From assembly GCA_016784105.1 (NCBI GenBank), contig JADHVG010000010.1, forward strand, positions 1 through 34,543: a DNA stretch of 34,543 nucleotides. The letters run 5' to 3'. Below, piece by piece: positions 5,822-31,867 of the stretch. A program made the translations under genes and the position numbers. Under the pieces are notes generated by a model. It was not told the origin of the DNA. It was given only the letters and a program-made list of their open reading frames with translations, and did no database searches. The stretch is from Candidatus Woesearchaeota archaeon (GTDB lineage: Archaea; Nanobdellota; Nanobdellia; Woesearchaeales; GW2011-AR4). Numbering within the stretch: the first letter of the stretch is position 1; each line of letters starts with the position of its first letter.

Positions 5822-5827
5822 TTTTTT
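5822..5827 (+). terminator. T-tract downstream of metG
   Basis: A T6 run eight bases after the metG stop codon, in T-rich context (TTATTATTTTTT). It fits an archaeal oligo-T termination signal and separates metG from the cassette A promoter. Confidence 0.3.
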
Positions 5828-5979
5828 CTGTTATAGTTTACATATTTTTACTATTGATAATCTATAAATCAATTATTTATAACATAATTCTAGTATCAAT
5901 AACATAATTTAAGCTTATTTTAATCATTTTTTACAAATTTCTAATATTCATAACAGAATTTATTGAATAAATAACAGAA
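5826..5979. repeat. Array of ATAACAKAA half-sites upstream of cassette A
   Basis: ATAACATAA occurs at 5879-5887 and 5899-5907, ATAACAGAA at 5950-5958 and 5971-5979, and the inverse TTCTGTTAT at 5826-5834. The direct copies are spaced 20, 51 and 21 bases apart, close to whole helical turns, so a bound protein would contact one face of the DNA. The last copy abuts the TATA box. This looks like an operator array for the promoter of cassette A, though AT-rich sequence raises the chance background. Confidence 0.45.
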
Positions 5980-5982
5980 AAC

Positions 5983-5991
5983 TTTATAAAT
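5983..5991 (+). promoter_or_regulatory. TATA box of cassette A
   Basis: TTTATAAAT centred about 27 bases upstream of the ATG at 6014, preceded by ACAGAAAAC as a BRE-like stretch that is shared with the last ATAACAGAA half-site. Predicts a leaderless transcript starting at the small basic gene. Confidence 0.65.
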
Positions 5992-6013: not shown

Positions 6014-6289
6014 ATGCAAAAAGAGTCTCTTAATCAGTACATGATTGTTTCTTATACTCTGAAAAACATTTCTCAGAAAAAAAAGGTCAAGTTTCTTAGA
6101 AAGCTGCAAGGCTACAAAGAAAAAAAGGAAAAGAAAGAGTATTCTCATGAAGGTTTGATACAAAAGTTGAATGCCAAAAAGCTCGGAAGCAACGTTATAC
6201 TTTCTCCGATAGAAAATTTTTCAGAGATACATAACCTGTTGTCTAGTTATAACATAAAGGCTGAGGTCAAAGAAGCATGGATGAAATGA
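6014..6289 (+). CDS. Small basic protein, first gene of cassette A
   Basis: A 91-residue Lys-rich cytoplasmic protein of unknown function. It begins MQKESLNQYMIVSYTLKNIS, continues with a strongly basic helix (QKKKVKFLRKLQGYKEKKEK), then YSHEGLIQKLNAKKLGSNVILSP and an alpha/beta tail ending NIKAEVKEAW. The pattern of basic helix, then GLIxKLxxKKLGxNVI, then a short alpha/beta unit is one I remember from conserved small archaeal proteins of unknown role. By position it matches the ribbon-helix-helix and AbrB genes that open cassettes B and C, so a nucleic-acid-binding regulator is a reasonable inference, but no DNA-binding fold is proven by sequence. Its stop TGA overlaps the next gene's start (ATGA, 6286-6289). 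Confidence 0.75.
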   Translation: MQKESLNQYMIVSYTLKNISQKKKVKFLRKLQGYKEKKEKKEYSHEGLIQKLNAKKLGSNVILSPIENFSEIHNLLSSYNIKAEVKEAWMK

Positions 6290-8547
6290 AAAAGAAATCT
6301 CAAGTGACAATATTCATAATTCTAGGTCTTATCATCTTAGTTACCGCTTCCATGTTCTTTTTTATTGATGGAGAAAGTTCTGAGGATCCTCTCAGAACAG
6401 TTCAAGAACAACAGCCTTCACAGTTTGCTGGTCAAACCGAGATAGGAAGTTATGTTGATACGTGCTTGCAGGACTCTGTCCTGCAAGGTTTGGAAATAAT
6501 GAGACTACAAGGAGGATACATCGTTATCCCGGAAGACATCAAAACACTAAAAGTAAAAGATCTAGATAACAAACAAATTAAGCTTATTGATGGGAGCCTA
6601 AAAGTTGTGATTGATGAGAATGGTCCAGGAAATTCTGTTCCTTTCTGGATCGAAAAAGACAAAGTAGCAGTTCCTTCTCCAGAACATATTGGATTGCAGC
6701 TAGATAGGTATCTTTTCTTTGAAGTAAATAAATGTTTAAATGATTTTAAGCCTTTCAAAGAACAGGGATTTCAGGTTTCTTATGGTCCTGTTGAGACTAT
6801 TGTTGAAGTTGGAAATTCTGTTATAACAACACTAAATTTACCGATAGAAGCAAAAAAAGAAGATTTAGAAATTTCTTTGAATAAGTTTGTTTTTAGTGCT
6901 CCAATCAATCTTGAAGATCTCCAAGACATTTCATATAGCATTGCAGCATATCAAAACTCTTTTGGTTTTCTGGAAGATCACACAAAAAACCTTATCTCTT
7001 TGCATTCTGGTTTAGATGCCAATAAATTACCTCCTTTTTTTAGGTCCATAATCAACACTGATTGTAATTCTATAGAGTGGAGCAAGCAGACTTCAAAAGA
7101 ACGTCTTAAGAAGATACTTGAAGAGAATGTTCCTGAAATAAGGATAGATAAGACCGATTACAATCCCATAGAGTATAAGGATCTTATGTCTAAGGGAGTT
7201 TACGAAAGTTTTATCTATGATTTTTTGAATAAGAACCAGGATAGTACTCAAGTAAGTTTTAATTACAATCCTGAATGGGGTTTTATGGAGTATGATATTT
7301 TACCTAGCAGAGGGGATGCTTTAATCCCTAACATTGTTGAAAAAGATATTCCTTTGGTCTCAAAATTCTGTGTCCTGGAATATGAAAACAAGTATACATT
7401 GAATTATCCTGTCCTTGCTAGAGTAAACAACAAAGAATCTTCAGGCATAAATATTAAGAGTTCTTCTTTGATAAAAAATGCTGGCTTTGAAATGCAGTAT
7501 TTCATGGATTCTTATATCTGTGGCAATCAGGAAAAGACCTGCAGAACAAGACCTAACGTGGAAGTTGATTTACAATCTATCTCAGAGGAATTTGATGTTG
7601 AGATAATTCCAGAGACCCAGTTCTGTGATCCTGAACAAAGAACAAGTGAGGATATTTCTTTGGAATTTTCCGATGCTTCTGATGGTTCTGGAATAGAGGG
7701 ATTAAATTTATACTATTTTTGTGGAAATTATCAAAATAATTGTTTTATTGGCAGAACCAACAATCAAGGAACTATCATAGCTAAATTTCCTCAGTGCGTG
7801 AATGGAATTTTACACGCTTCCAAAAAAAATTATAGTGGTTTAATGGAACAATTAAGCATCTATGGAGATTATGCGAAGAGCTTTAGTTACCAATTGATGC
7901 CTCTGAAAGATGTTGAGGTTTTCGTTGAGAAAATAGATGCTACTTCTCTGGTAAGAAATTATTTTGAAACTGGAAAAGTAGAGATAGAAAAATCTTCTTT
8001 GCCTCTTGAAGCAGATGAAACCGTTTTTATATCAGGTTCGGGTCCCACCAGGATAAATTATTATCATCCAAAGATTCTTTTAAGTAGATTTGAGCTTGTT
8101 CCGGGAGATTATAGTTTTGGAGTTTCTTTAAGCAAGAATACTAATCTAAAAAGCAAAGTTATTGAGGGAAAAGAATTTGGAGGGATACAAGGAAATTTTC
8201 CTATGGGGATTTTGAATTTTGATTGGGATGTTAAAGAAGTTAAAGACAAGATGTTAGTTTATGCTCTTTCAAATTATGATTTAGGTGATGGAGGCATAAG
8301 CTTTGGAGATATCAGCGATCCATTGTTGGATAGTGAAGGGAGTCTTTCCGCGGAACTTGCTTACAGGTGCGAAAAGATAGTTTTAGATAATGAAGAATCT
8401 TGTAACTTAGATAATTGTGAATTTATTAATGCTAGTGGCATACTAAAAGATGATTTTGAAAGTGATTATGAAACTTGTGAGATAGAATTCAATGTTACTA
8501 TAGCAAAAGAAGATTATATAAATTTGATTAAACCAAGGTTCATATGA
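6286..8547 (+). CDS. Large class III-signal (pilin-like) surface protein, cassette A
   Basis: A 753-residue protein anchored by its N-terminus (MKKKSQVTIFIILGLIILV). The start at 6286 is preferred over 6277 because it gives the ATGA overlap and aligns with the paralogs at 13654 and 23432. Lys-Ser followed by QVTIF and a hydrophobic helix resembles class III signals cleaved by prepilin peptidase, but Ser replaces the usual Gly/Ala and the protein is far larger than a pilin. The extracellular part has C60, GGYI at 76-79, VPFW near 118-121 and C150, all matched in the paralogs. Around residues 480-530 is a Cys-rich beta-sandwich (CGNYQNNCFIGRT, FPQCVNGIL) resembling carboxypeptidase-regulatory-like domains. 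The function is unknown; it is likely the structural core of an envelope complex made with the next two genes. Confidence 0.75.
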   Translation: MKKKSQVTIFIILGLIILVTASMFFFIDGESSEDPLRTVQEQQPSQFAGQTEIGSYVDTCLQDSVLQGLEIMRLQGGYIVIPEDIKTLKVKDLDNKQIKLIDGSLKVVIDENGPGNSVPFWIEKDKVAVPSPEHIGLQLDRYLFFEVNKCLNDFKPFKEQGFQVSYGPVETIVEVGNSVITTLNLPIEAKKEDLEISLNKFVFSAPINLEDLQDISYSIAAYQNSFGFLEDHTKNLISLHSGLDANKLPPFFRSIINTDCNSIEWSKQTSKERLKKILEENVPEIRIDKTDYNPIEYKDLMSKGVYESFIYDFLNKNQDSTQVSFNYNPEWGFMEYDILPSRGDALIPNIVEKDIPLVSKFCVLEYENKYTLNYPVLARVNNKESSGINIKSSSLIKNAGFEMQYFMDSYICGNQEKTCRTRPNVEVDLQSISEEFDVEIIPETQFCDPEQRTSEDISLEFSDASDGSGIEGLNLYYFCGNYQNNCFIGRTNNQGTIIAKFPQCVNGILHASKKNYSGLMEQLSIYGDYAKSFSYQLMPLKDVEVFVEKIDATSLVRNYFETGKVEIEKSSLPLEADETVFISGSGPTRINYYHPKILLSRFELVPGDYSFGVSLSKNTNLKSKVIEGKEFGGIQGNFPMGILNFDWDVKEVKDKMLVYALSNYDLGDGGISFGDISDPLLDSEGSLSAELAYRCEKIVLDNEESCNLDNCEFINASGILKDDFESDYETCEIEFNVTIAKEDYINLIKPRFI

Positions 8548-9506: not shown

Positions 9507-9508
9507 AA

Positions 9509-11014
9509 ATGGATTTAAGAAAAGAAAAAACGGTAATGTACCTGTACTTTTTTTCAGTTGTAGCTTTGATAGCTAGTTTTAGCTTTACTGTTGAAGGGAA
9601 TAAAATCTCTGGAGCCGCAGTCTTTGACGATCTTAAAGGTTATGTTTCTGGTTTTGATGTGTTTAGTGTTTCTTTGATCCTTTTTATCTTTCTTTCGTTG
9701 CTTGTTTTTTCTTTGTATTTCGTACATCATTCTCACAAGATAAGAAAAGATATCCATCATTCACACGTTAAGCTAATTAGTGTTTTAACAGTTCTTATTG
9801 TTTTGATTGCTTTTGTTAGTTTCCTTAATTACGATAATGAAAGTAATAGTGTTACTGGTGCCGCCACCGGATTAGAAGGAATTACCGGGTACGCTACCAA
9901 TCCCTATGAAGAAGATTCTGAATTCAAATTTTTCGGTGAAGGGGGTGTTGCTTATTTCGATTTCTTTGACCCTAGTATTAAGAATGTTGATGGTTTTAGA
10001 ATTAATTTAAGAAATGGGCAGGTTACTAAAGATGGAAAGCCTGTTTCCCTGCAAGAGACTCAAACTGCTTTGTGGAAATCTGGATATTATTTAGAGTCAG
10101 ACCAGCTGTTAATCGATCCCAGAGATGGGACAGTCTTAGAATTAGAAGTTACTGGTGAAAAAGAAGTATCTGATTTAATTTCAGGAAAGAAAAAAGTCAA
10201 AGAGTATGGCATATCTGAAAAAGAATCAAAATTAAGTTCCAAGGAAATTGTAAATGCTTGGGTTGATTCTGGTTTTATTCCTGTAATAAAAGATGAAGAC
10301 GGTAAAGAATATTTGAGATTTCCATCTTATGAAACTGATGAAGAGGGGAAGACTAAATTCGCAGGATACGAATATTATTCTAAAGAAGAATTGGAAAAAA
10401 CAGATGTAGTGACATCCAAAGAAGGCACATCCAGTCTTGATGGTGATTTAAAAATTTCTAAAAATTTAGATGGGGAGGAGTTAGCTAAATTCGAGGATTT
10501 ATCAAGGAAAAATTCTGCAAGAGATGCTATGAACCGTCAAGCAAGGCAATTTTTCAGAAACATGTTGAATATGATTCTTGGCGATGTTATTAATGAGCAG
10601 GCTGAGGCTATGTGTCGGGATGGTGAAGCATCTTCGGAGCCTTCTGAAGTTCAAGGAAGTTCTCCTCCTCCAGGTGGTTCTTCTGGTTCAAGTTCTTCTA
10701 GCTCTGGTTCTGGTAATTGTCCGAATCCTGTTACTACGCTAACTGCTCAGTCAACGAAATCTCAGGTTGGCAGTTCTTTCACTTATAGAAGTTCTTGGAC
10801 TGTTACGGCTTGCAAGCAAGATACACAGTATTCTATTTATTTAGCTAACAGCGTGAGTGATAGGCAAGAAATTGCTACGGGTTTTGCTTCTTTAGCTTCA
10901 ACAAGGTCCGCATCAAAAGTTTCTACTATAAACAGCGATTTTAATTCCATCTGTGTTTTAACGGATGATTCTTCTGTTGGAGATAGTGGTTATGTGTGTT
11001 TTGATGTTGTTTGA
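9509..11014 (+). CDS. Multi-TM surface protein with duplicated TGAATGLE-type box, cassette A
   Basis: A 501-residue protein. The ATG at 9509, two bases after the previous stop, is chosen over an in-frame TTG at 9497. Membrane segments are near residues 8-27, 51-72 and 88-106, with a His/Lys-rich loop (HHSHKIRKDIHHSHVK) between the last two. ISGAAVFDDLKGYVSG at 33-48 and VTGAATGLEGITGYAT at 115-130 follow TM1 and TM3 and are two versions of one box; the second is near-identical to a box in the protein at 18953. The rest is a long polar domain with KxGxx repeats, RQFFRNML near 350, a Pro/Gly/Ser linker and a Cys-containing beta domain. The role is unknown, probably an envelope component. It ends directly against the convergent toxin gene with no bases between stops. 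Confidence 0.7.
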   Translation: MDLRKEKTVMYLYFFSVVALIASFSFTVEGNKISGAAVFDDLKGYVSGFDVFSVSLILFIFLSLLVFSLYFVHHSHKIRKDIHHSHVKLISVLTVLIVLIAFVSFLNYDNESNSVTGAATGLEGITGYATNPYEEDSEFKFFGEGGVAYFDFFDPSIKNVDGFRINLRNGQVTKDGKPVSLQETQTALWKSGYYLESDQLLIDPRDGTVLELEVTGEKEVSDLISGKKKVKEYGISEKESKLSSKEIVNAWVDSGFIPVIKDEDGKEYLRFPSYETDEEGKTKFAGYEYYSKEELEKTDVVTSKEGTSSLDGDLKISKNLDGEELAKFEDLSRKNSARDAMNRQARQFFRNMLNMILGDVINEQAEAMCRDGEASSEPSEVQGSSPPPGGSSGSSSSSSGSGNCPNPVTTLTAQSTKSQVGSSFTYRSSWTVTACKQDTQYSIYLANSVSDRQEIATGFASLASTRSASKVSTINSDFNSICVLTDDSSVGDSGYVCFDVV

Positions 11015-12783: not shown

Positions 12784-13298
12784 ATGTCATCTTTAGCCTA
12801 TAATTTGATTTACTCTGCGCTTGTGTCTTTAGTCGGTGTTTCTCAGTCGCAATATTCTTAGGTTATTCCGATAAAGGCTTCTCCGGGGTTCACGGAGAGC
12901 ACCAAACATGAAGGTTTATCTAATCTTGAAAGGTTTGTTGATCGTTCTTTGGATTTTGAACAAGGAGACTTTCCTGTTTTGGTAAGAAGTAGTTTAAGGA
13001 AGGTTGCGCAATTAGAGCATTATCATACTGGAATAAACCTTTCCTCTGGAGAGGTTAAGGATGAAGGAATGTTTCTTGATTCAGTGTTGAACTATCATAC
13101 CGCGAGAACTCATGAAGGTAAAATTATCCATCTTATCCATGACTTCAACACTTTGAATGGGTATCTACCCTTCAATATGCTGTTTTTATGGTTGATGATG
13201 ACAAGAAAGCTAACTTCGTTTTAGTTAATGGCAACAATTTTGATAAGAATCATTTTCAGCAAAAAATAGCAATTTACATCAAACAGCAAAAGCGTTAA
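12784..13298 (+). pseudogene. Broken gene: in-frame TAG plus a frameshift
   Basis: From ATG 12784 the frame reads MSSLAYNLIYSALVSLVGVS and meets TAG at 12859-12861 (codon 26). It then stays open (VIPIKASPGFTESTKHEGLS, DFEQGDFPVLVRSSLRKVAQ, HYHTGINLSSGEVKDEGMF) to about 13160-13173. There the reading moves to another frame (QYAVFMVDDDKKANFVLVN) and ends with TAA at 13296-13298. Rejoined, it would be about 170 residues with a good promoter. The ancestral function is unknown; the text looks like a small soluble alpha/beta protein with several His (YHTG, NYHTARTHEGK). An alternative is a short gene starting after the TAG, but the frame change would still truncate it. Reading errors in the assembly are a second alternative. 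Confidence 0.6.
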
Positions 13299-13430
13299 TT
13301 TATACTTTATTTATCCATTATTTTGTATAAATAATACTTAATTTATTCTTTATTTATACTAAATTTTGTATAAATAATTATAAACAATAGACTTTCTAAT
13401 GAAAATATTTATATATTAGTATACAAATAA
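13298..13430. repeat. Operator-like palindrome and half-sites upstream of cassette B
   Basis: GTATAAATAA occurs at 13325-13334 and 13368-13377, within 15-base direct repeats (13321-13335 and 13364-13378). Its inverse TTATTTATAC is at 13350-13359, giving a perfect 10-base inverted repeat with an 8-base spacer at 13350-13377. Partial copies are ATTTATAC at 13298-13305 and GTATACAAATAA at 13419-13430, the last just downstream of the TATA box. This is the expected arrangement for a small dimeric repressor such as the ribbon-helix-helix protein encoded next. Confidence 0.55.
13407..13418 (+). promoter_or_regulatory. Probable TATA box of cassette B
   Basis: ATTTATATATTA preceded by GAAAAT. Transcription would begin near 13440 and leave a leader of about 40 bases before the ATG at 13482. 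The GTATAC half-site lies between box and start site. Confidence 0.45.
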
Positions 13431-13481: not shown

Positions 13482-13652
13482 ATGGTTAATAATAGCATAC
13501 AAGTACGCATAACAATTTCTAAAGAAATCAATGATTTACTTGAAAGAGCAGCCAAAAAACTAGGCAAGAAAAAATCCATGTTAGCACGAGAATTAATGGA
13601 ACAAAAACTGTATGACTTAAACTTAATCCAAAAAGAACTCAAAGAATTGTAA
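13482..13652 (+). CDS. Ribbon-helix-helix (CopG/Arc-type) regulator, first gene of cassette B
   Basis: A 56-residue protein: MVNNSIQVRITISKEINDLL, then ERAAKKLGKKKSMLARELM and a C-terminal EQKLYDLNLIQKELKEL. Residues 5-12 (SIQVRITI) form the DNA-contacting strand, 14-26 helix A, a Gly-Lys-Lys-Lys-Ser turn, and 32-45 helix B. This matches the ribbon-helix-helix fold, whose dimers insert paired strands into the major groove at palindromes. The gene is separated by one base from the next start (13654), so it is co-transcribed with cassette B. The inverted repeats just upstream make autoregulation of the whole operon likely. It could instead be an orphan antitoxin, but no toxin gene is adjacent. 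Confidence 0.85.
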   Translation: MVNNSIQVRITISKEINDLLERAAKKLGKKKSMLARELMEQKLYDLNLIQKELKEL

Positions 13653-13653
13653 G

Positions 13654-15768
13654 ATGAAAAAAAGAGGGCAAGCATCTATATTTATTATATTAGGGTTGAT
13701 ACTAGTTATGGGAGCAGCATTATTTTTTTATACAGATTTAAACAAGAACAAGGAAGAGATAGCTCCGGGAGTCTTTGTTGCAGTAAATGATATCCCTCAA
13801 GAACTTAATCCAGTGAAAAATTTTGTTACACAATGTCTTGAGGATACTTCCTCCAACGCTTTAAAGCTTCTTGGACAGAACGGAGGATATATAGATCTTG
13901 ACAGTTCTTATTCCGGGAAAAATTTCAATATCGATAATGGTGCAACCGAAAGTGACATAGTATCTTTCACCGAGGAAAGCAACCTTAAGATACCTTACTG
14001 GTGGTACATGAACTCTCCCAACACCTGCAAGAATTGCAAGTTCACAAGTAATAGACCAGACCTAAGAGACGGTTCTTATTCAATAGAAGCCCAGCTCAGC
14101 AAGCATATAGAGCAAGAACTAAGTTCATGTCTTGGTGACTTTGAAAGCCTAAAACAACTGGGTTTCGAGATAAAAGAAAAAAGCAAGATAAAAGTTTCTT
14201 CAAAAGTTACAGAAGAGGATGTCATCTTTATTCTTGATTATGATCTTGAGTTCAAGAAAGGTGATACGACCTCCTCTTTAGATCAGTTTTTTGTGAGAGT
14301 TCCTATAAGCTTGCAGAAGATCTACAATCTCGCCACGGACATCATGAATATGCAACAGGAATTTAGGTTCCTTGAAAGACAAGTCCTAAACTTAATAGCT
14401 TCTTTCTCGTCCATAGATAGCAACAAATTACCCCCCATGTCTGATATGAGTTTTGAGTTCGGAAGCACAACTTCCTGGTCAAAGCAAGATGTACAAAACA
14501 ACCTCCAAGGCATTCTTGAAAGTTATGTTCCTTTGCTGAAAGTTGACAGTACAAAAAATTTCAACAGAGAATTTTACAGTTCTTCTTTGAAGCAAAGGCT
14601 CCATGACAGCATGATAATTCCGATAACTGACAGTTCTTATAATAACTTACAAGCCACCTTCTCTTATCTCGATTTCTGGCCCCCATATTTCGACATGAAT
14701 TGTAAAGGAGATATATGTCAACCAGAATCCGTTTCCTCTGACCTACTATCAGTTATTGGGATCCAAAGATACAATTTTTTTTATGACCTTTCATATCCCG
14801 TTTTAGTCAACATTTTCGAAGAAGATGCTTTGAACGGACGAGGGTACGAATTCAACTTATTCCTGGAATCTAATATCCGGAATAATAACGAACTCAGAAC
14901 AGGTTTTGCCCCATTAGAAGTTTCTTCAATAGAACTTGGTTCAGGACTTTGTGACCTTGGAAACAGGAACAGTAAACCAGTAACCATAACCACAAAAGAC
15001 AAATCATCCTCAACTCCGCTTGGTAATGTAAACATTGTCTTTAATGTCGCAGGAGAAAGTTGCTATATTGGTTCTACTTCCGATAACGGAACCCTTATCT
15101 CTAAGTTCCCAGCGGGAACAGTTGGTGGAACAATCAGCTTTATGCATGAAGATTATCTTTCAGAAAGCAAACTTTTCGATGCAAGTCTTACTGATGAAAA
15201 AATCATAGAGGAAAAACTTGAACCTATAGCTGATAAAAGCATCGAGATCAAGAAAAAACTTCTTGAAAAAGTTGGTAACGAATGGGTTTTTACAAATAAG
15301 GTCGAATCTTTAAGGAGCAACGAAGAGGCATTCATAACCTTAACAAGAATAAGCTCTCTTGAAGAGGATGATTTTAGTGCTGCTGCGAACATCCAAGGAA
15401 CTTCAAAAGAGCTTATACAGATTGTTCCTGGAAAATACACTCTCAATGTAAACATGTTCTTACGAGAAAACCTAAAAATTCCTGAACGAAAAGTTAAGAA
15501 AAGAACCGGACTTTTTGAAGAAGAAGAATTTGACATTCCAGGAACCGAATTCAATGAGAACAACCCTTTCCCTTCTGGAGGGGTAAACATCAACATAACA
15601 ATAACTAAACAGGATCTTGAAAAAAATGTTATAACAGTTTTTGCCTTGAGTCCTGCTTTGTATGATGTCCCGGAAAACTTGAGAGAATTAGAGGACTTAC
15701 AACAATCAGCAAACGTACATGATTATTCAAAGGTTTTTGAAGCTTTGTTAAAACCGGTTTTCCAATAA
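13654..15768 (+). CDS. Large class III-signal (pilin-like) surface protein, cassette B
   Basis: A 704-residue paralog of the proteins at 6286 and 23432. The N-terminus MKKRGQASIFIILGLILVMG matches a class III signal: Arg-Gly before QASIF and a hydrophobic helix, so prepilin-peptidase cleavage after Gly5 is possible; position +5 is Phe rather than the usual Glu. C61, GGYI at 77-80, PYWW at 114-117 and C159 align with the paralogs. A CKNC pair at 125-128 is extra. Near residues 425-480 a beta-sandwich unit (CYIGSTSDNGTLISKFP) matches the carboxypeptidase-regulatory-like domain of the paralogs but lacks the second Cys. The mature part is extracellular. It is the second gene of the operon, ten bases before the next start. 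Its biochemical role is unknown. Confidence 0.75.
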   Translation: MKKRGQASIFIILGLILVMGAALFFYTDLNKNKEEIAPGVFVAVNDIPQELNPVKNFVTQCLEDTSSNALKLLGQNGGYIDLDSSYSGKNFNIDNGATESDIVSFTEESNLKIPYWWYMNSPNTCKNCKFTSNRPDLRDGSYSIEAQLSKHIEQELSSCLGDFESLKQLGFEIKEKSKIKVSSKVTEEDVIFILDYDLEFKKGDTTSSLDQFFVRVPISLQKIYNLATDIMNMQQEFRFLERQVLNLIASFSSIDSNKLPPMSDMSFEFGSTTSWSKQDVQNNLQGILESYVPLLKVDSTKNFNREFYSSSLKQRLHDSMIIPITDSSYNNLQATFSYLDFWPPYFDMNCKGDICQPESVSSDLLSVIGIQRYNFFYDLSYPVLVNIFEEDALNGRGYEFNLFLESNIRNNNELRTGFAPLEVSSIELGSGLCDLGNRNSKPVTITTKDKSSSTPLGNVNIVFNVAGESCYIGSTSDNGTLISKFPAGTVGGTISFMHEDYLSESKLFDASLTDEKIIEEKLEPIADKSIEIKKKLLEKVGNEWVFTNKVESLRSNEEAFITLTRISSLEEDDFSAAANIQGTSKELIQIVPGKYTLNVNMFLRENLKIPERKVKKRTGLFEEEEFDIPGTEFNENNPFPSGGVNINITITKQDLEKNVITVFALSPALYDVPENLRELEDLQQSANVHDYSKVFEALLKPVFQ

Positions 15769-15778
15769 TAATATAAAT

Positions 15779-18700
15779 ATGAAAGTCAAAAAAATGAAGA
15801 TGCACAAAAAATCGAGGAAAATTTCTGCTATCCTCTTATTATCTATGCTTATTATTCTTCCAATAAACTCTTCTTTAGCCCTCGCTGGAATCATTGATGT
15901 AAATGCTGAAGGAAAGGACAAGGTTAATGGCTATATTAGAGAAACCGACCAGGTTGATTTTTCAGTCTCTGCTACGATAGCCGGAGACACTGAAATAACC
16001 ACTAATCAAGTTTTGTTAGGATCTAATGTGGAATTCGGCTCATGTACTGCAGGAATTGACGGTTTTGATTGTACTCTTAAATTTCCAGATTCCGGAGATA
16101 CTACTTTTGACGCTAAGCAGATACCTTATACCATAACCTTGAAAAGTGATTCCGGAACTGTTATTGATACTAAGACCGATAGCTTTTACGTTGACAATCT
16201 TCCTCCGACCGTCAACAGTTTCAGCGTTGACACAAGCGTCCTGTCTACTGGGAAGATAAGATTAAAATATGAAGTCCAGGATCGTGCCTGTTCCGGTTCA
16301 GGTTGTGAAGGTAAGTGCTCAGGCATAAGTAAGATAGAACTTTTTGAGACTGGAAGCAGTTACAAAGAAACCATCACTCTTAACACTAACTCCTGCTTAG
16401 TATCTGATAGGTCCATCGCTTCTATAACTCAGTTCAGCGAAGGTTCTCACACTGTTTTTGCTAAGGCTTATGATAATTTTGGTCTTGCTTCTTCCGTTTT
16501 ATCAGCTACTTTTGACTTTGATAAAAGCGCTCCTTCAATAGACACTTCTAGTTTTACGATAACTGATAGTAGCAATCTTCCTTTGGACCATTTTGGAAGT
16601 TCTCCAGTTCCGGTTATTGTCAAAATTAATATCCATGATTCTGATCTTAATAAAAACAATGTGTTTGCTGACTTAAGCCAAATTACTGGTAGCTCTGGAG
16701 ACAGCAACAAAAAAGCTTTGTGTTCCGGTGAAGATGCTGTTGAGTGTTCCTGGCAATTATCTTTGAATCCTGGAAATCCCGGAACTAAAACTATGAAGGT
16801 AGAAGCTACTGACGGCGCAGGTAATAAAGCAACAACTGACATCCAGAAAAATATGCAGTTGGATAATTCCGGACCAGTTGTTCTATCTATTACCTCTTTT
16901 CAGACTCAAGATGGGAAGAGTTTTGCAAAATTAACGGATAACAATTTCTTAGCAACTTTTTCCGAGCAAGATTCAGGCTTAAAGAAAGAAGATATTGTGC
17001 TTCACGCCTCCAATTCAAAGTCGGCAGATTCTTGTGTTAGTTCTGGAGGTATCTGGCAGTGTGAATTTTCCGGAATAAATTTTGCTAGCTCAGGAACATC
17101 TACTGTTTATATAGGTTCAGATTCAACTGATCGTCTTGGAAACAAAATAAACAGTCAATTTTCTCAGGAAGTTTTAGTGGATACTTCCCGTCCTTCGGTA
17201 TTGAAAGTAGTATCCAGAGGAATTGGAGGAAGTTCCAGCTTGTTAGCTAATTTAACAACTACCGGTTCCAAGATTCAGGTAGAAGCTGCAATATCTGATG
17301 ATAACATAGAATCCGCTTCCGGTGACTTTTCAAAATTTATATTTAACGCGGATAATATTCCGGCTGATTCTTGCATCAAGACTGCTGAAAAGACTTTTGT
17401 ATGTTCCTGGACAACTTCATCTATTGACATAGAAGGCCACATAAATGATTTCATAACTTTAAAGTTTAAGGATACTTCCGGCAACATTTTAGAAGCTAAG
17501 GAAAGGTTTGTTGTTTATGGTACTGATGGGGCTAGGACAGCTGACTTCTATACTAGCAATACTAGATGTTCTCCTGCTAATCTAGATAGGGGCACTATGG
17601 CCCTGATTGAGCAACGCGCTTACTGCATTGTTTCCTTAATCCCTCAAACTCTTGTGAACGATGTTGGAAGGTTTGAGGCTGTTGAACCAATCTCCATGAG
17701 TCTTGGAGAATGCACTGGTGATACTGGTTTTGTGCAAAATGTTGAGCTTCTTAATGATCAAACTGTTGAACCGGTCCTCAAGGTAACTTTCCAGAGGCAA
17801 GGAGGGAACATAGACAAAGTTGATCTTTTATGTCCTTTGAACATAATATCCAAACAAGGAAATACCATCATAACCACTCCTGAAACTGAAAACGCAGACA
17901 TTAATTTTCGGCTCTATAATCTTCCAGTTGGAGAACTAGAAGATTCTGTCCAGACAAAGATTGATACTGCGGTTGAAGATGCTGATAACGCTTTGAAGAT
18001 AGCAACAACTCTCAAGAAACTTTTCTTCTACGGAAAACAAATATGTCAAGTTGGAAATACCCTAGCTAATGTTGTTGTTTTGTATAGGACAGTGGGGGTT
18101 GTGTGGGACAATTGGGATGCTATAACAACTGGAACTCCCGTTAATGCTCCTGCCAAAGTAAAAAGGGAAGCGTGGAATGAGGTAACGGAGGCCATGCGAC
18201 AAAATGTTATTTCTGAATATCCTATGTTCAACAAAGCTTGTAATTTTGTAAATTGTAAGACCGTTGTGGACAGTGACGCTGCTACTTTTGATTTCGAAGG
18301 TCCTGATTCGATTCTAGGTAAGTGGCGTGCAGAAGGAAAAGACATCATTGGCAAGCTTGATGTTGGAAACGTTGTTTCTGAGTACGTTGGAGATGGAGGG
18401 GAAATTAGTGATCCTTCAAGGTTCATGAATCCTCGGGATAGTATCGCAGTTGCAACTCTTACTGCTTGCGTTCCGGGAATAATTCACGGTTTAGATAAGT
18501 ATAGGCAGATTCAGTGTATGTACGCTGACTGCTTAAAAACTGGAGTTGGTGTGCAAGGACTCCCAGTTTATGCTTGTGATGATCAAAAATCTTACGCAGA
18601 ATGCAAATATGTTGTTGGAGAAATCTTCCAGATACTTCCAATAACTGCAATGTTTGATTACTATGCTAACTTGATCAAGAACACTTTATCTAATCCTTTC

Positions 18701-18949
18701 AAGATCTTAGGTTCTGGTATCGCTCTGGTTTGTCAAACAGGTTCTGTTGAACCTTACTCTTACGGTCTTTGCTCCACAACAAAAATAATCTCGTTGTTAG
18801 GGTCAACAATCCAAGAAGTTACCTCCATATTTGATTCCAATCAGTGGACCGTACAAGATGATTTTTGCAAACGGCTAGATGAGAGTAATGATGATGACGA
18901 CAGCAGTGGAGATAGTGAAGAAAGCGGAGGACTCTTTGGCTGGTTTTAG
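15779..18949 (+). CDS. Secreted Ig-repeat and Cys-rich surface protein, cassette B
   Basis: A 1056-residue exported protein. Residues 1-37 form a signal sequence ending LALA. At least four Ig-like beta domains follow, their boundaries marked by DNLPPTV (about 138), DKSAPSI (247), DNSGPVV (361) and DTSRPSV (467), spaced about 105-115 residues. From about 585 the protein turns Cys-rich and helical (TRCSPANLDRGTMALI; VDLLCPLNI near 680; FFYGKQICQV near 745). Near 890-965 comes the module shared with the other cassettes (TACVPGIIHGLDKY; CMYADCLKTG; C-x8-C in ACDDQKSYAECKYV). The tail is acidic (DDDDSSGDSEES) and ends GGLFGWF. I remember the C-terminal half as a recurrent hypothetical family in DPANN genomes. 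It is probably the main exposed subunit of the cassette B complex. Starts at 15794 or 15800 are also possible. Confidence 0.72.
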   Translation: MKVKKMKMHKKSRKISAILLLSMLIILPINSSLALAGIIDVNAEGKDKVNGYIRETDQVDFSVSATIAGDTEITTNQVLLGSNVEFGSCTAGIDGFDCTLKFPDSGDTTFDAKQIPYTITLKSDSGTVIDTKTDSFYVDNLPPTVNSFSVDTSVLSTGKIRLKYEVQDRACSGSGCEGKCSGISKIELFETGSSYKETITLNTNSCLVSDRSIASITQFSEGSHTVFAKAYDNFGLASSVLSATFDFDKSAPSIDTSSFTITDSSNLPLDHFGSSPVPVIVKINIHDSDLNKNNVFADLSQITGSSGDSNKKALCSGEDAVECSWQLSLNPGNPGTKTMKVEATDGAGNKATTDIQKNMQLDNSGPVVLSITSFQTQDGKSFAKLTDNNFLATFSEQDSGLKKEDIVLHASNSKSADSCVSSGGIWQCEFSGINFASSGTSTVYIGSDSTDRLGNKINSQFSQEVLVDTSRPSVLKVVSRGIGGSSSLLANLTTTGSKIQVEAAISDDNIESASGDFSKFIFNADNIPADSCIKTAEKTFVCSWTTSSIDIEGHINDFITLKFKDTSGNILEAKERFVVYGTDGARTADFYTSNTRCSPANLDRGTMALIEQRAYCIVSLIPQTLVNDVGRFEAVEPISMSLGECTGDTGFVQNVELLNDQTVEPVLKVTFQRQGGNIDKVDLLCPLNIISKQGNTIITTPETENADINFRLYNLPVGELEDSVQTKIDTAVEDADNALKIATTLKKLFFYGKQICQVGNTLANVVVLYRTVGVVWDNWDAITTGTPVNAPAKVKREAWNEVTEAMRQNVISEYPMFNKACNFVNCKTVVDSDAATFDFEGPDSILGKWRAEGKDIIGKLDVGNVVSEYVGDGGEISDPSRFMNPRDSIAVATLTACVPGIIHGLDKYRQIQCMYADCLKTGVGVQGLPVYACDDQKSYAECKYVVGEIFQILPITAMFDYYANLIKNTLSNPFKILGSGIALVCQTGSVEPYSYGLCSTTKIISLLGSTIQEVTSIFDSNQWTVQDDFCKRLDESNDDDDSSGDSEESGGLFGWF

Positions 18950-18952
18950 AAA

Positions 18953-21900
18953 ATGAAAAACAAAAAAGCAGTTATCAAAGGCTTTGTCACATTCTTACTA
19001 GTGATGATGGGTTTCTTCTTCCTAGGATTCTATACTGAAGATGAAATGATAACTGGTGCCGTTACCGGATTAGAAAAAGTTACTGGAATGGTTACTGATG
19101 AAGAATTGAGTAAGATGAGTTCTCCAGAAAAAACTGCTGCTATCCGTACTGGGACTCTTAGCGCTGCTCAATTAGAAGTTTTAACTGGAGACAATAGTGC
19201 TGGAGTAAGGACTGTTGCTGAAGAATATTTAGGGAAAGGTGCTTTTAATCCTGGTTCTGTCTTTAATATGCCTAATGATGAAGATTTAACTCTTTCAGAA
19301 GGAGATGGAGATACAACAACAGAATCTGTTACATCCCCCCTTTCAATTAGACCTCCTACTCAAGAAGAGCAAGATAGGAGAGTTACTGCAGTGAGTCCTG
19401 CAGAAAAACCCACGAAAACTGCAACTGTTCTGATTGATACTTTAGGGATAAATAACAAGATGTATGAAATTGATTATTATGAAAATGGACAGATAGCTAA
19501 GATCACCAGCAATGGGGATGAAGTTTCAAGAAATGATTTTGATTCTGATTTAGAAAAAAATCTGGGAATTAATCCTGAATCTGATGCAGATGTATACAGA
19601 GTAGCTGCACTGGTTTCTCAAGGTGCTTCTAATGAAGGATGGTTAGATGATTCTTATGTCAAGATAGAAGATAAAACTTTCAATAGAAAAAGTGCAGGAG
19701 AAAATCTACCAGGAACAGAAGCAGCGATAAAAAGGCAAATTTTCAATGACGACACAGAAGCACAAGAAACAGGAACAGCAGGAGAATTAACTCCGACTCC
19801 TAAAGTAGAACAGGTTATACTGCCTGAATGGGTCAGGCCTCTTGAAGCAGACCAAACAAGAACAGAAGTAGAAGGGGATGTCGTAACTTTCTATAACGAA
19901 AATGGAGAAAAGATTGGAACTTATAATACAAAAACAGAAACACGGATTTATTCTCCTCCTTTGGGAGATGAAGATACTCACGCACAAGACATAGGGACAG
20001 CAGGGGAAATTTATGAAGTTGGAAATGCTTATGGTTCTCAGGAGGGTACTGGACTTCCTCAAAGTATAACCATTCTAGAATCCTATGAAGGATTTCTATT
20101 TGCAGAAGGGAGCTCAGATGGTCAGAATTATGTTTTTCATGATAATGAATGGAAGTCAATTAATAATTTTGAGGATATTAGTAAATTTAGGAATGAAAAT
20201 GGAAGGGTAATCTTATTCCATGAATCTGGAGAAGAATATTCAGTCATATATGACAATAAAGATGGTGATCTAACAGGCAAAACGTTAACCCTTACAGAAA
20301 GAGATGCACTCATAGGAGCATCAGAATTAGTGCCTGAATCTAAAACAGCTATTGAAGCAGATGATATAGACCCAGCAGATGGTACTCCTCCTGCATTATT
20401 ATCTGGATCTGGAACAACTACTGGGCAAACAGCCGCGAACGAAGACGCTTATGAAGGTTCCGAAAAAACAACATCTCCGCAATCTTCAGATGAATCTAGT
20501 TCTGATGCAAATTCCAATGCTGCGCCAACAACAAAAACAATTTACAAAACAACTCTTCCTGACGGCACAGTGATACAATCAGAAAACAAAAAAGAGATTG
20601 AAGATTATTTAACAAGGAAAAACATAAAGGCTAAGATAGAAACAATAACTTTGAAAGTTGGTGAGACTGTTGCTGAGGTAGAGGGTTTCAAGAGTTCTTG
20701 TGATAATAAATTAAATATTTGTGATGTTACCGGTCCGGATGGTTATTATAAGTCTTTTACTGGCGAAAATAGGCAATCTGAAGCGGAAAGCCATGGAAAT
20801 GAAAAAAATAATGAACTCTACAAAAAAAGATTAGAAGATTTAGTTAAAAAAGAAAAAGGAACTTTGATTGAGGGAGATAATGAGTTTTTCATGGAGAAGA
20901 ATGGGTTAGTGTTCCATTATGATCCAAACTCCAATACTTTTAGTAAAACACAATCAGATACTTACACTTCTGTTGAGAGTGTTGGTGATTTCAAAGTTTT
21001 TAGGAAGTTTGTTTATGATAAAAAAGAGGAGGAGTATGACGAAGAAGTGTTCTATCTGGAAAATGAACAAGGGGAGAAATTGTACTTAGATCCTCAAACT
21101 TTAGAAGAAATTAAGAAATTAAAGGGAGATTCTGAAAAAATTAAGGTGTCTGGTAATGGGGATAGTGCTTCTTACACTTTTTCTTTAGAGAATGGTAGAT
21201 CTCAAGAGATAGTTACGGAACCAGGCTTGAGACACACAAAATTTTTGGATACTATTTATGAAAAAGATGGTAAAAGGTTAACTCAAGAAGAATTTGATGC
21301 TCTCGGGGATGAGGAAAAAAAGAAGATACAAAAAAGTTCTAAGATTATGGTTGCAGAAATAATTCAAACTAGTTCTTCAACTACTCGGACTAATTATCGG
21401 TATGATTCTTCCCTAAAAAGAATGGTCGGAGATAGTGTAGTTACAAAAAGTGCTGATGGAACAACAAGTTATGAGTATAAGGAGTGTGATACTCCAACTA
21501 AGTGTGCGACCGTTACTTTTGATGATAAAGGCGAACCAAGTAAGTGTGTTGGAGAGAATTCTATTTGTAAGGACTTGGGGAATAAGATGGAAAGGGCTAA
21601 CACTGCTCAAAATAAACATTCTTCTAGGCAATTTTTCTCTCAATTAGAAACTACTTTAACTAGATTTTCTGGTTTGGGTTATTATGCTACTTTATTCTTC
21701 GAAGAGGGAGATTTGGATGAGTGGAGGAATAGTGTTGATGAAGCGTTCTCAACTCTTTATTTAGGTACGGAGTACTGGACTTCTGAGATTTGTGCGGCGG
21801 ACATAGAACGTGACCAGCAAGGTGTTGCTTACGTTGACACAAAATTAGGCCTTGCAGGAGTTGCTGCTCACATACAAGCGACAAGAAGTGAAGAGTTGAT

Positions 21901-22336
21901 TCTTCCTGGAATTGATTATGATGAAAAAGGAATAGTGAATAGTCCTAGAGAATTTTTGTATAAGGTAACGTTCAACGTAAGAAATGGTGATTATGATACT
22001 GACCCTAATGCTTTGGAAAAATTAAAGTTTAATGTAGAATTACGAGGAGAAAGAACAATAAATATTTACAAACAGAAGATAACTGTTGATAAGGGAAGTT
22101 CTCATGCTGCTTTAGCAGGTAATTCTTTTGTGCAGTACTCTAATTATTTTTATGATACTGTCTGTTTGATTTTTGATGATGCTCCTACTTCTTGGAGATT
22201 GAGTGATGACACTGTTTGCAATACCATACAAGGTCCTACCAGCCCTTCTTCTACTGGAGGTTCTAGCTCTGGAGGAAGTAGTAGTGGAGGTTCCAGAGAG
22301 AGCAATGAGGGAGATGGTGACACTAATGACGTTTAG
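18953..22336 (+). CDS. Large single-TM surface protein with TGAVTGLE box, cassette B
   Basis: A 1127-residue protein with one N-terminal TM (about 8-27) followed at 33-48 by ITGAVTGLEKVTGMVT, matching the box in the protein at 9509. Most of the chain is polar, with beta-hairpin units (KMYEIDYYENGQIAKI, YNENGEKIGTYNTK) and a local duplication (EAQETGTAGEL near 267, HAQDIGTAGEI near 342). From about 880 a more compact domain begins: SSRQFFSQLETTL, EICAAD, PREFLYKVTFNVRNGD, SNYFYDTVCLIF and VCNTI, i.e. helical then beta with paired Cys. A Gly/Ser linker and acidic tail end it. RQFF and the beta domain parallel the 9509 protein. It starts three bases after the previous stop. The function is unknown, likely an envelope complex subunit. 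Confidence 0.7.
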   Translation: MKNKKAVIKGFVTFLLVMMGFFFLGFYTEDEMITGAVTGLEKVTGMVTDEELSKMSSPEKTAAIRTGTLSAAQLEVLTGDNSAGVRTVAEEYLGKGAFNPGSVFNMPNDEDLTLSEGDGDTTTESVTSPLSIRPPTQEEQDRRVTAVSPAEKPTKTATVLIDTLGINNKMYEIDYYENGQIAKITSNGDEVSRNDFDSDLEKNLGINPESDADVYRVAALVSQGASNEGWLDDSYVKIEDKTFNRKSAGENLPGTEAAIKRQIFNDDTEAQETGTAGELTPTPKVEQVILPEWVRPLEADQTRTEVEGDVVTFYNENGEKIGTYNTKTETRIYSPPLGDEDTHAQDIGTAGEIYEVGNAYGSQEGTGLPQSITILESYEGFLFAEGSSDGQNYVFHDNEWKSINNFEDISKFRNENGRVILFHESGEEYSVIYDNKDGDLTGKTLTLTERDALIGASELVPESKTAIEADDIDPADGTPPALLSGSGTTTGQTAANEDAYEGSEKTTSPQSSDESSSDANSNAAPTTKTIYKTTLPDGTVIQSENKKEIEDYLTRKNIKAKIETITLKVGETVAEVEGFKSSCDNKLNICDVTGPDGYYKSFTGENRQSEAESHGNEKNNELYKKRLEDLVKKEKGTLIEGDNEFFMEKNGLVFHYDPNSNTFSKTQSDTYTSVESVGDFKVFRKFVYDKKEEEYDEEVFYLENEQGEKLYLDPQTLEEIKKLKGDSEKIKVSGNGDSASYTFSLENGRSQEIVTEPGLRHTKFLDTIYEKDGKRLTQEEFDALGDEEKKKIQKSSKIMVAEIIQTSSSTTRTNYRYDSSLKRMVGDSVVTKSADGTTSYEYKECDTPTKCATVTFDDKGEPSKCVGENSICKDLGNKMERANTAQNKHSSRQFFSQLETTLTRFSGLGYYATLFFEEGDLDEWRNSVDEAFSTLYLGTEYWTSEICAADIERDQQGVAYVDTKLGLAGVAAHIQATRSEELILPGIDYDEKGIVNSPREFLYKVTFNVRNGDYDTDPNALEKLKFNVELRGERTINIYKQKITVDKGSSHAALAGNSFVQYSNYFYDTVCLIFDDAPTSWRLSDDTVCNTIQGPTSPSSTGGSSSGGSSSGGSRESNEGDGDTNDV

Positions 22337-22340
22337 GAAA

Positions 22341-22350
22341 TATTTATAAA
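22341..22350 (+). promoter_or_regulatory. Possible internal TATA box ahead of the six-TM gene
   Basis: TATTTATAAA, centred about 28 bases upstream of the ATG at 22373, in a 36-base gap that is wider than others in the operon. It may let the membrane gene be expressed apart from the large genes. Confidence 0.4.
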
Positions 22351-22372
22351 AAGTATTTAGAAGGTTGAATAA

Positions 22373-23125
22373 ATGGTAAAAAAAGAGGGTTTGTTAAAGC
22401 ATAGTTATTCTTTATTTCTTGACTCGTTCAAGGACATTGATAAAAAATTTCCACTCGTTATCTTATATGATTTCTTATTTTATTTTGTGTTGGTGCAGGC
22501 TGGAAACTTGATGTTATTGTTCTTGCAAAAGAAAGCTTCTTCCATAAATTTAACTAATGATTTTTTGGCTTTGGATCCTGCGCAAGCAACAAGCATGCTT
22601 TCTTCTTTGAAAGGATTTCTTTTTTTTGTTGTTCTTGCTATGGTGCTTTTTGTGTTATTTAACACGATCAACGCAAGCCTTTTCAAAGGACTGGTATGGT
22701 CCACCTCTTCCAAGAAATCTTATAATAAAGAGACTTTCAAAAATTTCCTTAAGATAAACATCGTTTGGATTCCTTCCTGGGTAATCTTGGTTTTCTTGTG
22801 GAACGTTATCATGACTCAACAGGCAGCTACCATTGCAGGAGTCATAACCCTACTGCTTGCACTCCACCTTACTGGAATCATAAATGTTTCAATTCTAAGA
22901 AAAAGTAAAACTCCATTAAAAGATGCTTTTTCATTAGGTATTAAAAAGTTACATTTTTTCTTGATCCCTTACCTGGTGGTTTCGATTTTTTTCTTCATAT
23001 TTTTCAAGCTGCATTCGTTAATAGCAGCGTCTTTACATCTTTACTTTAATATTTTGATTTTGCTTGTATTTTTAGCGTGGACAAGATATTTTATTGTTAG
23101 GATTGTTGATAGCATAAGAAAATAG
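22373..23125 (+). CDS. Six-TM integral membrane protein, last gene of cassette B
   Basis: A 250-residue polytopic membrane protein with predicted helices near 27-50, 80-104, 128-147, 151-172, 192-211 and 220-242, and a basic C-terminal end. It is homologous to the last gene of cassette C: GLVW after TM2 (106-109), FSLGIKK ahead of TM5 (186-192) and AWTR in TM6 (235-238) all have counterparts at the same topological points. No ATP-binding, protease or transporter signature is visible. Its constant place behind the secreted genes suggests an anchor, export aid or assembly factor for the cassette's surface complex; this is inference from context only. Confidence 0.75.
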   Translation: MVKKEGLLKHSYSLFLDSFKDIDKKFPLVILYDFLFYFVLVQAGNLMLLFLQKKASSINLTNDFLALDPAQATSMLSSLKGFLFFVVLAMVLFVLFNTINASLFKGLVWSTSSKKSYNKETFKNFLKINIVWIPSWVILVFLWNVIMTQQAATIAGVITLLLALHLTGIINVSILRKSKTPLKDAFSLGIKKLHFFLIPYLVVSIFFFIFFKLHSLIAASLHLYFNILILLVFLAWTRYFIVRIVDSIRK

Positions 23126-23205
23126 TCACAAAAAGAGGGGTTTTCTTGATTAAAAGTTTGAACACCAAAAAACTTATAAATCCATATATGAATTAGATAT
23201 ATTTA

Positions 23206-23233
23206 ATAGTTAAAATTATGACTTAATAACTAT
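23206..23233. promoter_or_regulatory. Inverted repeat upstream of cassette C
   Basis: ATAGTTA at 23206-23212 and TAACTAT at 23227-23233 are perfect 7-base arms with a 14-base spacer, ending five bases before the TATA box. It is a candidate operator for the AbrB-fold protein encoded next. Confidence 0.45.
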
Positions 23234-23237
23234 AATC

Positions 23238-23247
23238 TATATATAAA
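23238..23247 (+). promoter_or_regulatory. TATA box of cassette C
   Basis: TATATATAAA centred 26 bases upstream of the ATG at 23269, giving a leaderless transcript. A second box-like CTTATAAATC at 23173-23182 further upstream is an alternative with a longer leader. Confidence 0.5.
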
Positions 23248-23268
23248 ACAGATATTAAACATATATAA

Positions 23269-23418
23269 ATGAAGTTTACAAAAAAAGTGATGAAGACTTC
23301 TGGAGGGATTGTAGTTAGGGTTCCTGCAGATATTTGCAAACTTCTTAATTTAACGGAAAAAGATTATGTTGAGATAGATTTGCAAAAAATAAATTTGAAA
23401 GAATTAAGTAAAAAATAA
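23269..23418 (+). CDS. AbrB/SpoVT-fold regulator, first gene of cassette C
   Basis: A 49-residue protein: MKFTKKVMKTSGGIVVRVPA, then DICKLLNLTEKDYVEIDLQK and a short Lys-rich tail. The sequence GGIVVRVPADICKLLNLTEKD fits the swapped-hairpin AbrB/MazE fold: strand, Pro, short helix, L-x-L turn, acidic strand DYVEIDL. It is the minimal DNA-binding domain with no toxin-binding tail, so it is more likely a transcription regulator than an antitoxin, and no toxin is adjacent. It sits 13 bases before the pilin-like gene, in the position held by the ribbon-helix-helix gene in cassette B, and an inverted repeat lies upstream. Confidence 0.8.
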   Translation: MKFTKKVMKTSGGIVVRVPADICKLLNLTEKDYVEIDLQKINLKELSKK

Positions 23419-23431
23419 TAGTGCGAGTAAA

Positions 23432-25294
23432 ATGTTTACAAAAAAAAGAGGTCAGGCATCTATTTTCATGGTATTCGCAATTGTAATCCTATTGGCAGGA
23501 TCATTTTATTTTTACACTCAAAAAATTTCATTAAAAGAAATTACTATCATAGATTCGGAAGCCGCTCCTGTCAAAAATTTCGTGGAAGAATGCATAAGTA
23601 ATGTCGCAAAACAAGGCTTAACTATCCTTGGAGCTAATGGTGGTTACATAACCTTCCCTGAAGAGATAGAACGTAACAAGAACTCTTATCTGCAAACAGG
23701 ACCAATAAGCAGCATAAAGAATCCTTATTGGTGGCATGATGGCATAGAAACAATACCTGGAGAAACTTTCATGATAAGCCAGATAGAATCTTATGTAAAA
23801 GAAAACTTAAACAGTTGTGTAAATAATTTCGCAGCCTTTACCAACAAGTTTGATGTTAAGGAACTCTCTGACTTGGAAGTAGATGTATCTTTGAATGAAA
23901 ATGATGTTACTGTTGATGTTTCCTGGAAATTAGATTTAATAAATAAGCTTAACAGCACAACCCTAAAACTAGAAAGCTTCAAAGAAATAGTGCCTATAAG
24001 ATTAAAAAAGATCTATCAGGCAGCAAGAGATATTTATGAAGCTGAAAAGAGAGATTTCTTCTTGGAATTTAAGACCATAGATCTCATAACCTTAGATGAG
24101 TCCATTCCCACAACCGATCTTGAAGCAACGTGCACCGAAAGAACATGGAATCAGGATGTTATTGAAAGCAAACTGAAAAGGCTTTTAGCGATTAATTTGC
24201 CGTACATTAATGTTCTGGGTACTGATTTTGATGATAACATTTACGTTCCTAATCCTTTTGGAGAGGACACTTACAAATCATCTTACTATAACCAGCATTA
24301 CAAGTGGCAAGTAAAAGATAAGAGTTATGATAATCTAAAAGTTTCTATTGATTACGATGAGAAGTGGCCTTTCGAATTTACAGCCCGTCCAAGCAGTAAT
24401 GGCATCTTAAAATCTAACGCGCAAAAAGGGCAAAATCTTCTTGGATTTTTATGCTTGCACATCTGGCATTTTACTTACGATGCTGTTTTCCCAGTAAAGA
24501 TAACGATAACCGATCCTGATTCAGAACAATTCCTATTTTCTTATGCTTTGAAAACCAGCGTAGATCATAATCAACCTAAGCGTGAAAACTTTGCATCAAC
24601 AATTTTTGAGCAACAAGACGTGATAAGCAACGAGGAATATTGCAATGATGTTGTGGACATAACAACCATTTCCACTCTCAGCAACTCCACAACCGAAGAA
24701 GCGATTGATGATGTTGAATTAAGTTTTACTTGCGGTATCTTCACTTGCGACATGGGTAAAAGCGAATGGGCAAGTTTTGGTGCTTCTGCTGAGTTAAGTA
24801 AACCGTTCCCTTACTGTGTGAATGGTATCTTAAGAGCAAATAAAGAAGGTTTTGAAGAATCTCAAATGTTTATAAATACGGAAGGGACAAGAGATTATAC
24901 TATTTACTTAAAACCAACAAAAACCTTTGAGAGCTATGAAATAGTAAAACATGAGGTGGATGATTTATCTATAACTAACAAGATGCAGGAAGATGAAATA
25001 GCTTCTATAACGCTTACCTCAACCACAAACGAGTTTGAAAGCTTCGGTATTATTCCAAGTGAAGACTTTCCTTTAAAGCTTCTTGACCAAGATCAGGAAT
25101 ATGACCTTACCATCCACTTGTCAGATAAAGAAAATGTTAAGGGCATGTACAAAACTGTATGGAAAGTTAAAAAATCAGAATTACAAGGTTCAAATAAAAT
25201 AATTTTCCATATTGTAGAAAGTGGCAACTCAGAATCATTATCAGAGAACATAGAACAATACTCGAACGAACTTCCAAAACCGGTAATAATATGA
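23432..25294 (+). CDS. Large class III-signal (pilin-like) surface protein, cassette C
   Basis: A 620-residue paralog of the proteins at 6286 and 13654. The N-terminus MFTKKRGQASIFMVFAIVIL carries the same KKRGQASIF class III-like signal, with possible prepilin-peptidase cleavage after Gly7. C54, GGYI at 70-73, PYWW at 98-101 and C129 align with the other two, and the C-to-GG distance (15 intervening residues) is identical in all three. The beta-sandwich unit near 425-480 (CGIFTCDMGKSEWASFG, FPYCVNGILRANKEGF) keeps FPxCVNGIL as in cassette A. The mature part is extracellular. Its stop overlaps the next start in ATGA, so it is translationally coupled to the giant protein. Function is unknown. 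Confidence 0.75.
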   Translation: MFTKKRGQASIFMVFAIVILLAGSFYFYTQKISLKEITIIDSEAAPVKNFVEECISNVAKQGLTILGANGGYITFPEEIERNKNSYLQTGPISSIKNPYWWHDGIETIPGETFMISQIESYVKENLNSCVNNFAAFTNKFDVKELSDLEVDVSLNENDVTVDVSWKLDLINKLNSTTLKLESFKEIVPIRLKKIYQAARDIYEAEKRDFFLEFKTIDLITLDESIPTTDLEATCTERTWNQDVIESKLKRLLAINLPYINVLGTDFDDNIYVPNPFGEDTYKSSYYNQHYKWQVKDKSYDNLKVSIDYDEKWPFEFTARPSSNGILKSNAQKGQNLLGFLCLHIWHFTYDAVFPVKITITDPDSEQFLFSYALKTSVDHNQPKRENFASTIFEQQDVISNEEYCNDVVDITTISTLSNSTTEEAIDDVELSFTCGIFTCDMGKSEWASFGASAELSKPFPYCVNGILRANKEGFEESQMFINTEGTRDYTIYLKPTKTFESYEIVKHEVDDLSITNKMQEDEIASITLTSTTNEFESFGIIPSEDFPLKLLDQDQEYDLTIHLSDKENVKGMYKTVWKVKKSELQGSNKIIFHIVESGNSESLSENIEQYSNELPKPVII

Positions 25295-31866: not shown

Positions 31867-31867
31867 A

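Follow-up and report, generated by a model that had tools for sequence, protein, structure and literature searches.

The closest described counterparts of the genes analyzed here are the ribbon-helix-helix (RHH) proteins SvtR, AvtR and ORF56 and the AbrB-fold protein C68 of archaeal viruses and plasmids, tiny proteins that bind repeated sites cooperatively and regulate their own expression (PMC5569661). Most regulators of archaeal viruses are repressors, many of them autoregulatory, and the viral RHH and AbrB-like regulators behave as autoregulators (PMC5569661). The same folds, first-gene position and own-promoter repeats are found in the autoregulation of type II toxin-antitoxin (TA) modules with RelB/CopG-type or MazE antitoxins. 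We analyzed a stretch of 34,543 nucleotides (the window), one contig of a 1.19 Mb MAG (G000), in which three tandem cassettes (A, B and C) share one orientation and each opens with a small gene. The products of these genes are likewise tiny; they differ from SvtR, AvtR, ORF56 and C68 in being chromosomal, in occupying the fixed first cistron of paralogous surface operons, and in having orthogonal sets of predicted operators. Unlike type II modules, they come without a toxin, and the next gene encodes a class III signal-peptide surface protein. Our literature searches (open-licence papers) for regulator-led surface operons returned nothing relevant. We propose that each cassette is independently autoregulated by its own first-gene product, most likely through repression, that orthogonal operators insulate the paralogous operons from one another, and that regulator and operator are exchanged as a unit, a reading that we consider probable. 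The genes concerned are as follows:

6014-11014, cassette A, in tandem and in the same direction as B and C
6014..6289, plus strand, BAS1 (91 aa), first gene of cassette A, predicted DNA-binding autoregulator
6277..8547, plus strand, class III signal-peptide surface protein, A-type paralog
13482-22336, cassette B, same direction as A and C, followed by a membrane protein at 22373
13482..13652, plus strand, RHH1 (56 aa), ribbon-helix-helix, first gene of cassette B
13654..15768, plus strand, class III signal-peptide surface protein, B-type paralog
23269-32716, cassette C, same direction as A and B
23269..23418, plus strand, ABR1 (49 aa), AbrB/MazE-like, first gene of cassette C
23432..25294, plus strand, class III signal-peptide surface protein, C-type paralog

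The second gene of each cassette encodes a protein of 620-756 aa whose signal is of the class III type (KKRGQASIFIILG...). The three proteins are paralogs, as originally predicted (27-30% identity, E = 4e-42 and 1e-39, BLASTP). The genes 3' of them code for large proteins that are exported and that, in B and C, contain Ig-like and fibronectin III domains. Of 147 related genomes, 136 have a homolog of the class III gene when whole genomes are searched by alignment (a single-sequence query of contigs gave none), and the tandem order A-B-C recurs in two of them (G003 and G011). Two C-type class III genes carry one in-frame stop each (G009:C13:35587-37308, TGA; G021:C3:237100-238833, TAG), which may reflect decay or sequencing error.

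The small first genes at 13482, 23269 and 6014 exist as they had been described and are conserved across Woesearchaeota and Nanoarchaeota MAGs. RHH1 relatives were found in 39 of the 147 genomes (nearly always as a single copy), strong ABR1 matches in 25, and strong stand-alone BAS1 copies in about 9. In an independent scan of a separate collection, a class III gene lay just 3' of RHH1 in 39 out of 42 contigs, and all RHH1 records are, by name, MAGs of Candidatus Woesearchaeota, Nanoarchaeota or Nanoarchaeia. Residue invariance is high in all three small families, and RHH1 and ABR1 are conserved far above the class III proteins that they precede. The statement that the RHH1 and ABR1 genes are too short for usual gene callers was overstated, as they measure 150-171 nt and exceed common caller limits (the default lower limit of Prodigal is 90 nt). 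The close spacing that had been pointed out, at most 13 bases to the second gene, stands in the window (1 nt between RHH1 and the start at 13654, 13 nt between ABR1 and the start at 23432) and does not extend to the relatives, in which the arrangement ranges from overlap to gaps of several hundred nt. The 3' end of BAS1 overlaps the class III gene start at 6277. A few copies of RHH1, ABR1 and BAS1 precede exported genes outside class III (G064, G117, G052, G130, G066, G084 and G101); in G117, RHH1 also occurs as tandem duplicates at two loci without an adjoining class III gene (L161 and L162).

The three families appear to be unrelated or very distantly related. The AlphaFold model of RHH1 (pLDDT 88) has an extended N-terminus and helices at residues 14-27 and 31-55, and although the strand is left unassigned in the monomer, the model agrees with the short N-terminal strand and two helices (about 45-55 aa) by which RHH proteins are defined. 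Ranks 1-14 of its Foldseek matches are RHH proteins throughout (CopG, Arc, ORF56, TacA), with single E-values of about 0.3 owing to its small size, and the structures of both ORF56 and SvtR are among the matches. Pfam RHH_1 matches 3 out of 12 RHH1 family members (best 1.9e-5), with the window copy giving no match, and an NCBIfam RelB-like profile matches the RHH at 1.2e-5. Pfam MazE_antitoxin matches all 9 ABR1 members searched (best 1.5e-4); the window copy scores 17.6 bits, below the curated cut-off of 24.7, and the best PDB match of ABR1 is MazE (E = 0.11). For the BAS1 family, sequence searches of Pfam, NCBIfam and the PDB gave no match. Its confident model is a small alpha/beta protein (pLDDT 93.7) for which Foldseek returned nothing below E = 0.07; any likeness to ferredoxin-like folds (Cas2, UreE) is weak.

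NTP_transf_2/NTase proteins of about 200 aa, found across the class, have a C-terminal domain homologous to BAS1, with matches in 141 out of 371 genomes of the phylum; the NTase partner is MntA-like (3.6e-8). This domain is common to BAS1 and the MNT/NTP_transf_2 proteins, and BAS1 of the window differs from the fusions in having no NTase domain, in being operon-linked and in having its own predicted operator. The nucleotidyltransferase motif (GS...DxD) is absent from the 91-aa BAS1 and present only in the fused relatives. At L150-L153, L156, L158 and further loci the BAS1 domain forms the C-terminus of NTP_transf_2 proteins, several with a similar gene 5', suggesting a conserved two-gene unit. 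In G008 (L191, G008:C57, 1079-1956, minus strand), BAS1 is separated from the A-type class III gene by two ORFs, one HEPN-like and one for an MNT nucleotidyltransferase. BAS1, the most novel part of the system, would be a DNA-binding family for which no relative is recognised. We lean slightly towards a more specific view: that BAS1 is an archaeal domain, not recognised before, that binds DNA sequence-specifically and reads a WTWACAGAA palindrome next to the BRE/TATA, that it is widespread in this DPANN class, mostly fused to NTases, and that together with the RHH and AbrB proteins it represents exchangeable regulator-operator units, perhaps derived from antitoxins, that insulate duplicated surface operons.

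Each of the three promoters carries its own set of repeats, which we predict to be operators:

5826..5979, predicted BAS1 operator half-sites ATAACAGAA/ATAACATAA at 5826 (minus strand), 5879, 5899, 5950 and 5971, the last abutting the BRE/TATA
5983..5990, plus strand, TATA box TTTATAAA of cassette A; the proximal BAS1 half-site starts 12 bp away
13295..13378, predicted RHH1 operator array, GTATAAATWA at 13296 (minus), 13325 (plus), 13350 (minus) and 13368 (plus)
13408..13415, plus strand, probable TATA box TTTATATA of cassette B, read from the sequence
23174..23181, plus strand, probable TATA box TTATAAAT of cassette C
23183..23267, predicted ABR1 operator region, with CATATATGAATTAGATATA (23183-23201) right after the TATA box, an inverted repeat (23184-23212/23227-23255) and CATATATA at 23260

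An EM motif search ended in AT motifs of low complexity, and we therefore used word enrichment against dinucleotide-based shuffles; operator words were chosen by enrichment in relatives and by reading the window promoters, and then checked in unused contigs. In RHH1 promoters, GTATAAAT/ATACTTWAT half-sites are phased at 11 bp and form an array around the TATA box that lies mostly upstream of it, with further half-sites between TATA and start codon. Pairs of half-sites at 11-bp spacing number 29, compared to 0.2 in shuffles, and in the contigs outside word choice 28 half-sites were found compared to 2.6. The spacing of 11, 22 or 33 bp upstream in relatives is that of a helically phased array, as would suit cooperative binding. 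Within 200 nt upstream, GTATAAAT occurs at 23 out of 27 RHH1 loci and at none of 17 ABR1 or 3 BAS1 loci. ABR1 promoters have CATATAT boxes directly downstream of or over the TATA box, and CATATATR lies within 200 nt upstream at 16 of the 17 ABR1 loci and 1 of the 27 RHH1 loci. BAS1 promoters contain WTWACAGAA half-sites, often as dyads (e.g. TTCTGTTAT-GA-ATAACAGA), with 26 at BAS1 loci compared to 0.28 in shuffles; TTCTRTTAT is found within the same distance at 3 out of 3 BAS1 loci besides the window, 2 out of 27 RHH1 loci and 0 out of 17 ABR1 loci. In 10 out of 11 genomes, from several families, the proximal BAS1 half-site starts exactly 12 bp before the TATA box, a set that includes BAS1 before another gene (G066, G084 and G101) and an NTase fusion with its own promoter (G086). 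Within their own genome, RHH1 and BAS1 site clusters occur solely at the cognate promoters, the GTATAAATWA cluster being the only one, and the composite site of ABR1 is matched exactly only once. The original prediction that unrelated small regulators hold the same slot, each with its own operator set, thus agrees with these counts, in which cross-occurrence is near zero. In one relative (G011, L041, upstream of 9022), RHH1 is intact and the array is replaced by an unrelated, more GC-rich repeated sequence.

Promoters are very AT-rich here, and one could take the repeats for nothing more than this usual base composition and the small ORFs for incidental. This is extremely improbable, given that shuffles yield roughly 10- to 100-fold fewer sites, that 28 class III loci lacking a recognised regulator have 0, 0 and 1 RHH1, ABR1 and BAS1 sites, and that the small proteins are far better conserved than the adjoining class III proteins. 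The controls are concordant: shuffles, unused contigs, regulator-less class III loci and whole-genome counts. All genomes are MAGs and several test genomes are close relatives, so the locus counts overstate the number of independent events.

Exchange of regulators is seen on a tree of 65 class III proteins, in which BAS1 marks the A clade, RHH1 the B clade and ABR1 the C clade. The regulator labels require 11 changes compared to 29.7 when shuffled, a value reached in 0 out of 200 shuffles (one row labelled as having no regulator, L017 of G009, carries RHH1, the label being an artefact of the overlap rule used). The regulator swap that had been proposed also holds within orthologous A-type operons, where the slot is occupied by BAS1, by another RHH protein (RHH2, in G002) or by a canonical AbrB (in G081). 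RHH2 is also present in the B-clade operon of G060, and its site TAAAAAGTATGATTTATA is identical over 18 bp between the A-clade and B-clade operons, which indicates that operators travel with their regulator; the canonical AbrB locus, read from its sequence, has TTAACTTATTT repeats of its own. Many class III homologs at the order level have no small regulator, which makes the regulator a lineage feature that the surface system does not require.

The autoregulation that we propose is based on computed observations (gene conservation, slot linkage, cognate repeats, exclusivity and swaps), from which we infer DNA binding by RHH1, ABR1 and BAS1, the sign of regulation and their function in a loop. 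A locus-specific first-gene regulator would bind the operators in its own promoter and so set the level of its own operon by feedback. RHH, AbrB-like and BAS1 proteins with non-overlapping operators would then form three independent loops, which implies that the paralogous surface operons do not cross-regulate, and over evolution regulator and operator would move between operons as a unit. Counting against this reading are the replaced array beside the intact RHH1 of G011, the many class III homologs that have no small regulator, and the fold of BAS1, which matches no recognised DNA-binding fold. Repression is the most likely sign because the sites overlap or flank the BRE/TATA and the start region: the positions of the ABR1 and RHH1 sites favour it, and the BAS1 site overlapping the BRE fits it, with activation also compatible there since this site is upstream of TATA. 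That the small proteins instead recruit TBP/TFB and act as activators, including of their own genes, is unlikely overall. The 12-bp register of the BAS1 half-site upstream of TATA and the mostly upstream position of the RHH1 array would suit recruitment, but ABR1 sites overlie TATA or follow directly on it, some RHH1 half-sites fall between TATA and start codon, the BAS1 half-site overlaps the BRE, and regulators of archaeal viruses are mostly repressors (PMC5569661).

The original prediction went further and suggested that the regulators enforce switching, with A, B and C expressed to the exclusion of one another or phase-variably. Three tandem paralogous surface systems with separate regulators would lend themselves to this, yet in the window no regulator has its operator at another cassette's promoter, A and B operators cluster only at their own promoter across the genome, and the promoters have no flanking long inverted repeats able to flip them; we thus regard switching as very unlikely. 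Promoter inversion was rejected, as long inverted repeats were not found at the promoters. With neither cross-operators nor invertible elements, three independent feedback loops are the more parsimonious reading. Similarly small is the chance that the genes are antitoxins of TA modules that happen to adjoin surface genes. Their folds (RelB-like RHH, MazE-like, and the MntA-like NTase partner of BAS1) are those of antitoxins, and G008 has the HEPN-like and MNT ORFs described above. Against this, a toxin gene is not adjacent in the window or at most loci, where the neighbour encodes an exported class III surface protein of 600-700 aa, and the small genes have long stayed linked to class III genes in one copy, whereas TA modules are distributed patchily. 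TA as the current function was rejected, no toxins adjoining; descent of the small regulators from antitoxins is plausible.

If the proposed autoregulation is true, duplicated operons can avoid regulating each other when each captures an unrelated regulator along with its operator. Our analysis provides five predicted regulator/operator pairs for uncultured DPANN archaea, in which regulation is almost unknown, including BAS1, which has no recognised DNA-binding relative. Short synthetic DNA and small recombinant proteins would allow direct tests of these pairs.

Two further observations concern the surroundings of the class III genes. In G115:C10 (L090), a 47-aa protein without a profile match occupies the same slot before the class III gene and is possibly a further type of regulator. 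Upstream of cassette A, at 2747-5814 of the window, an HTH/LAGLIDADG-like ORF overlaps the start of methionyl-tRNA synthetase, and a MetG-like C-terminus also lies 5' of the class III loci in G041 and G046.
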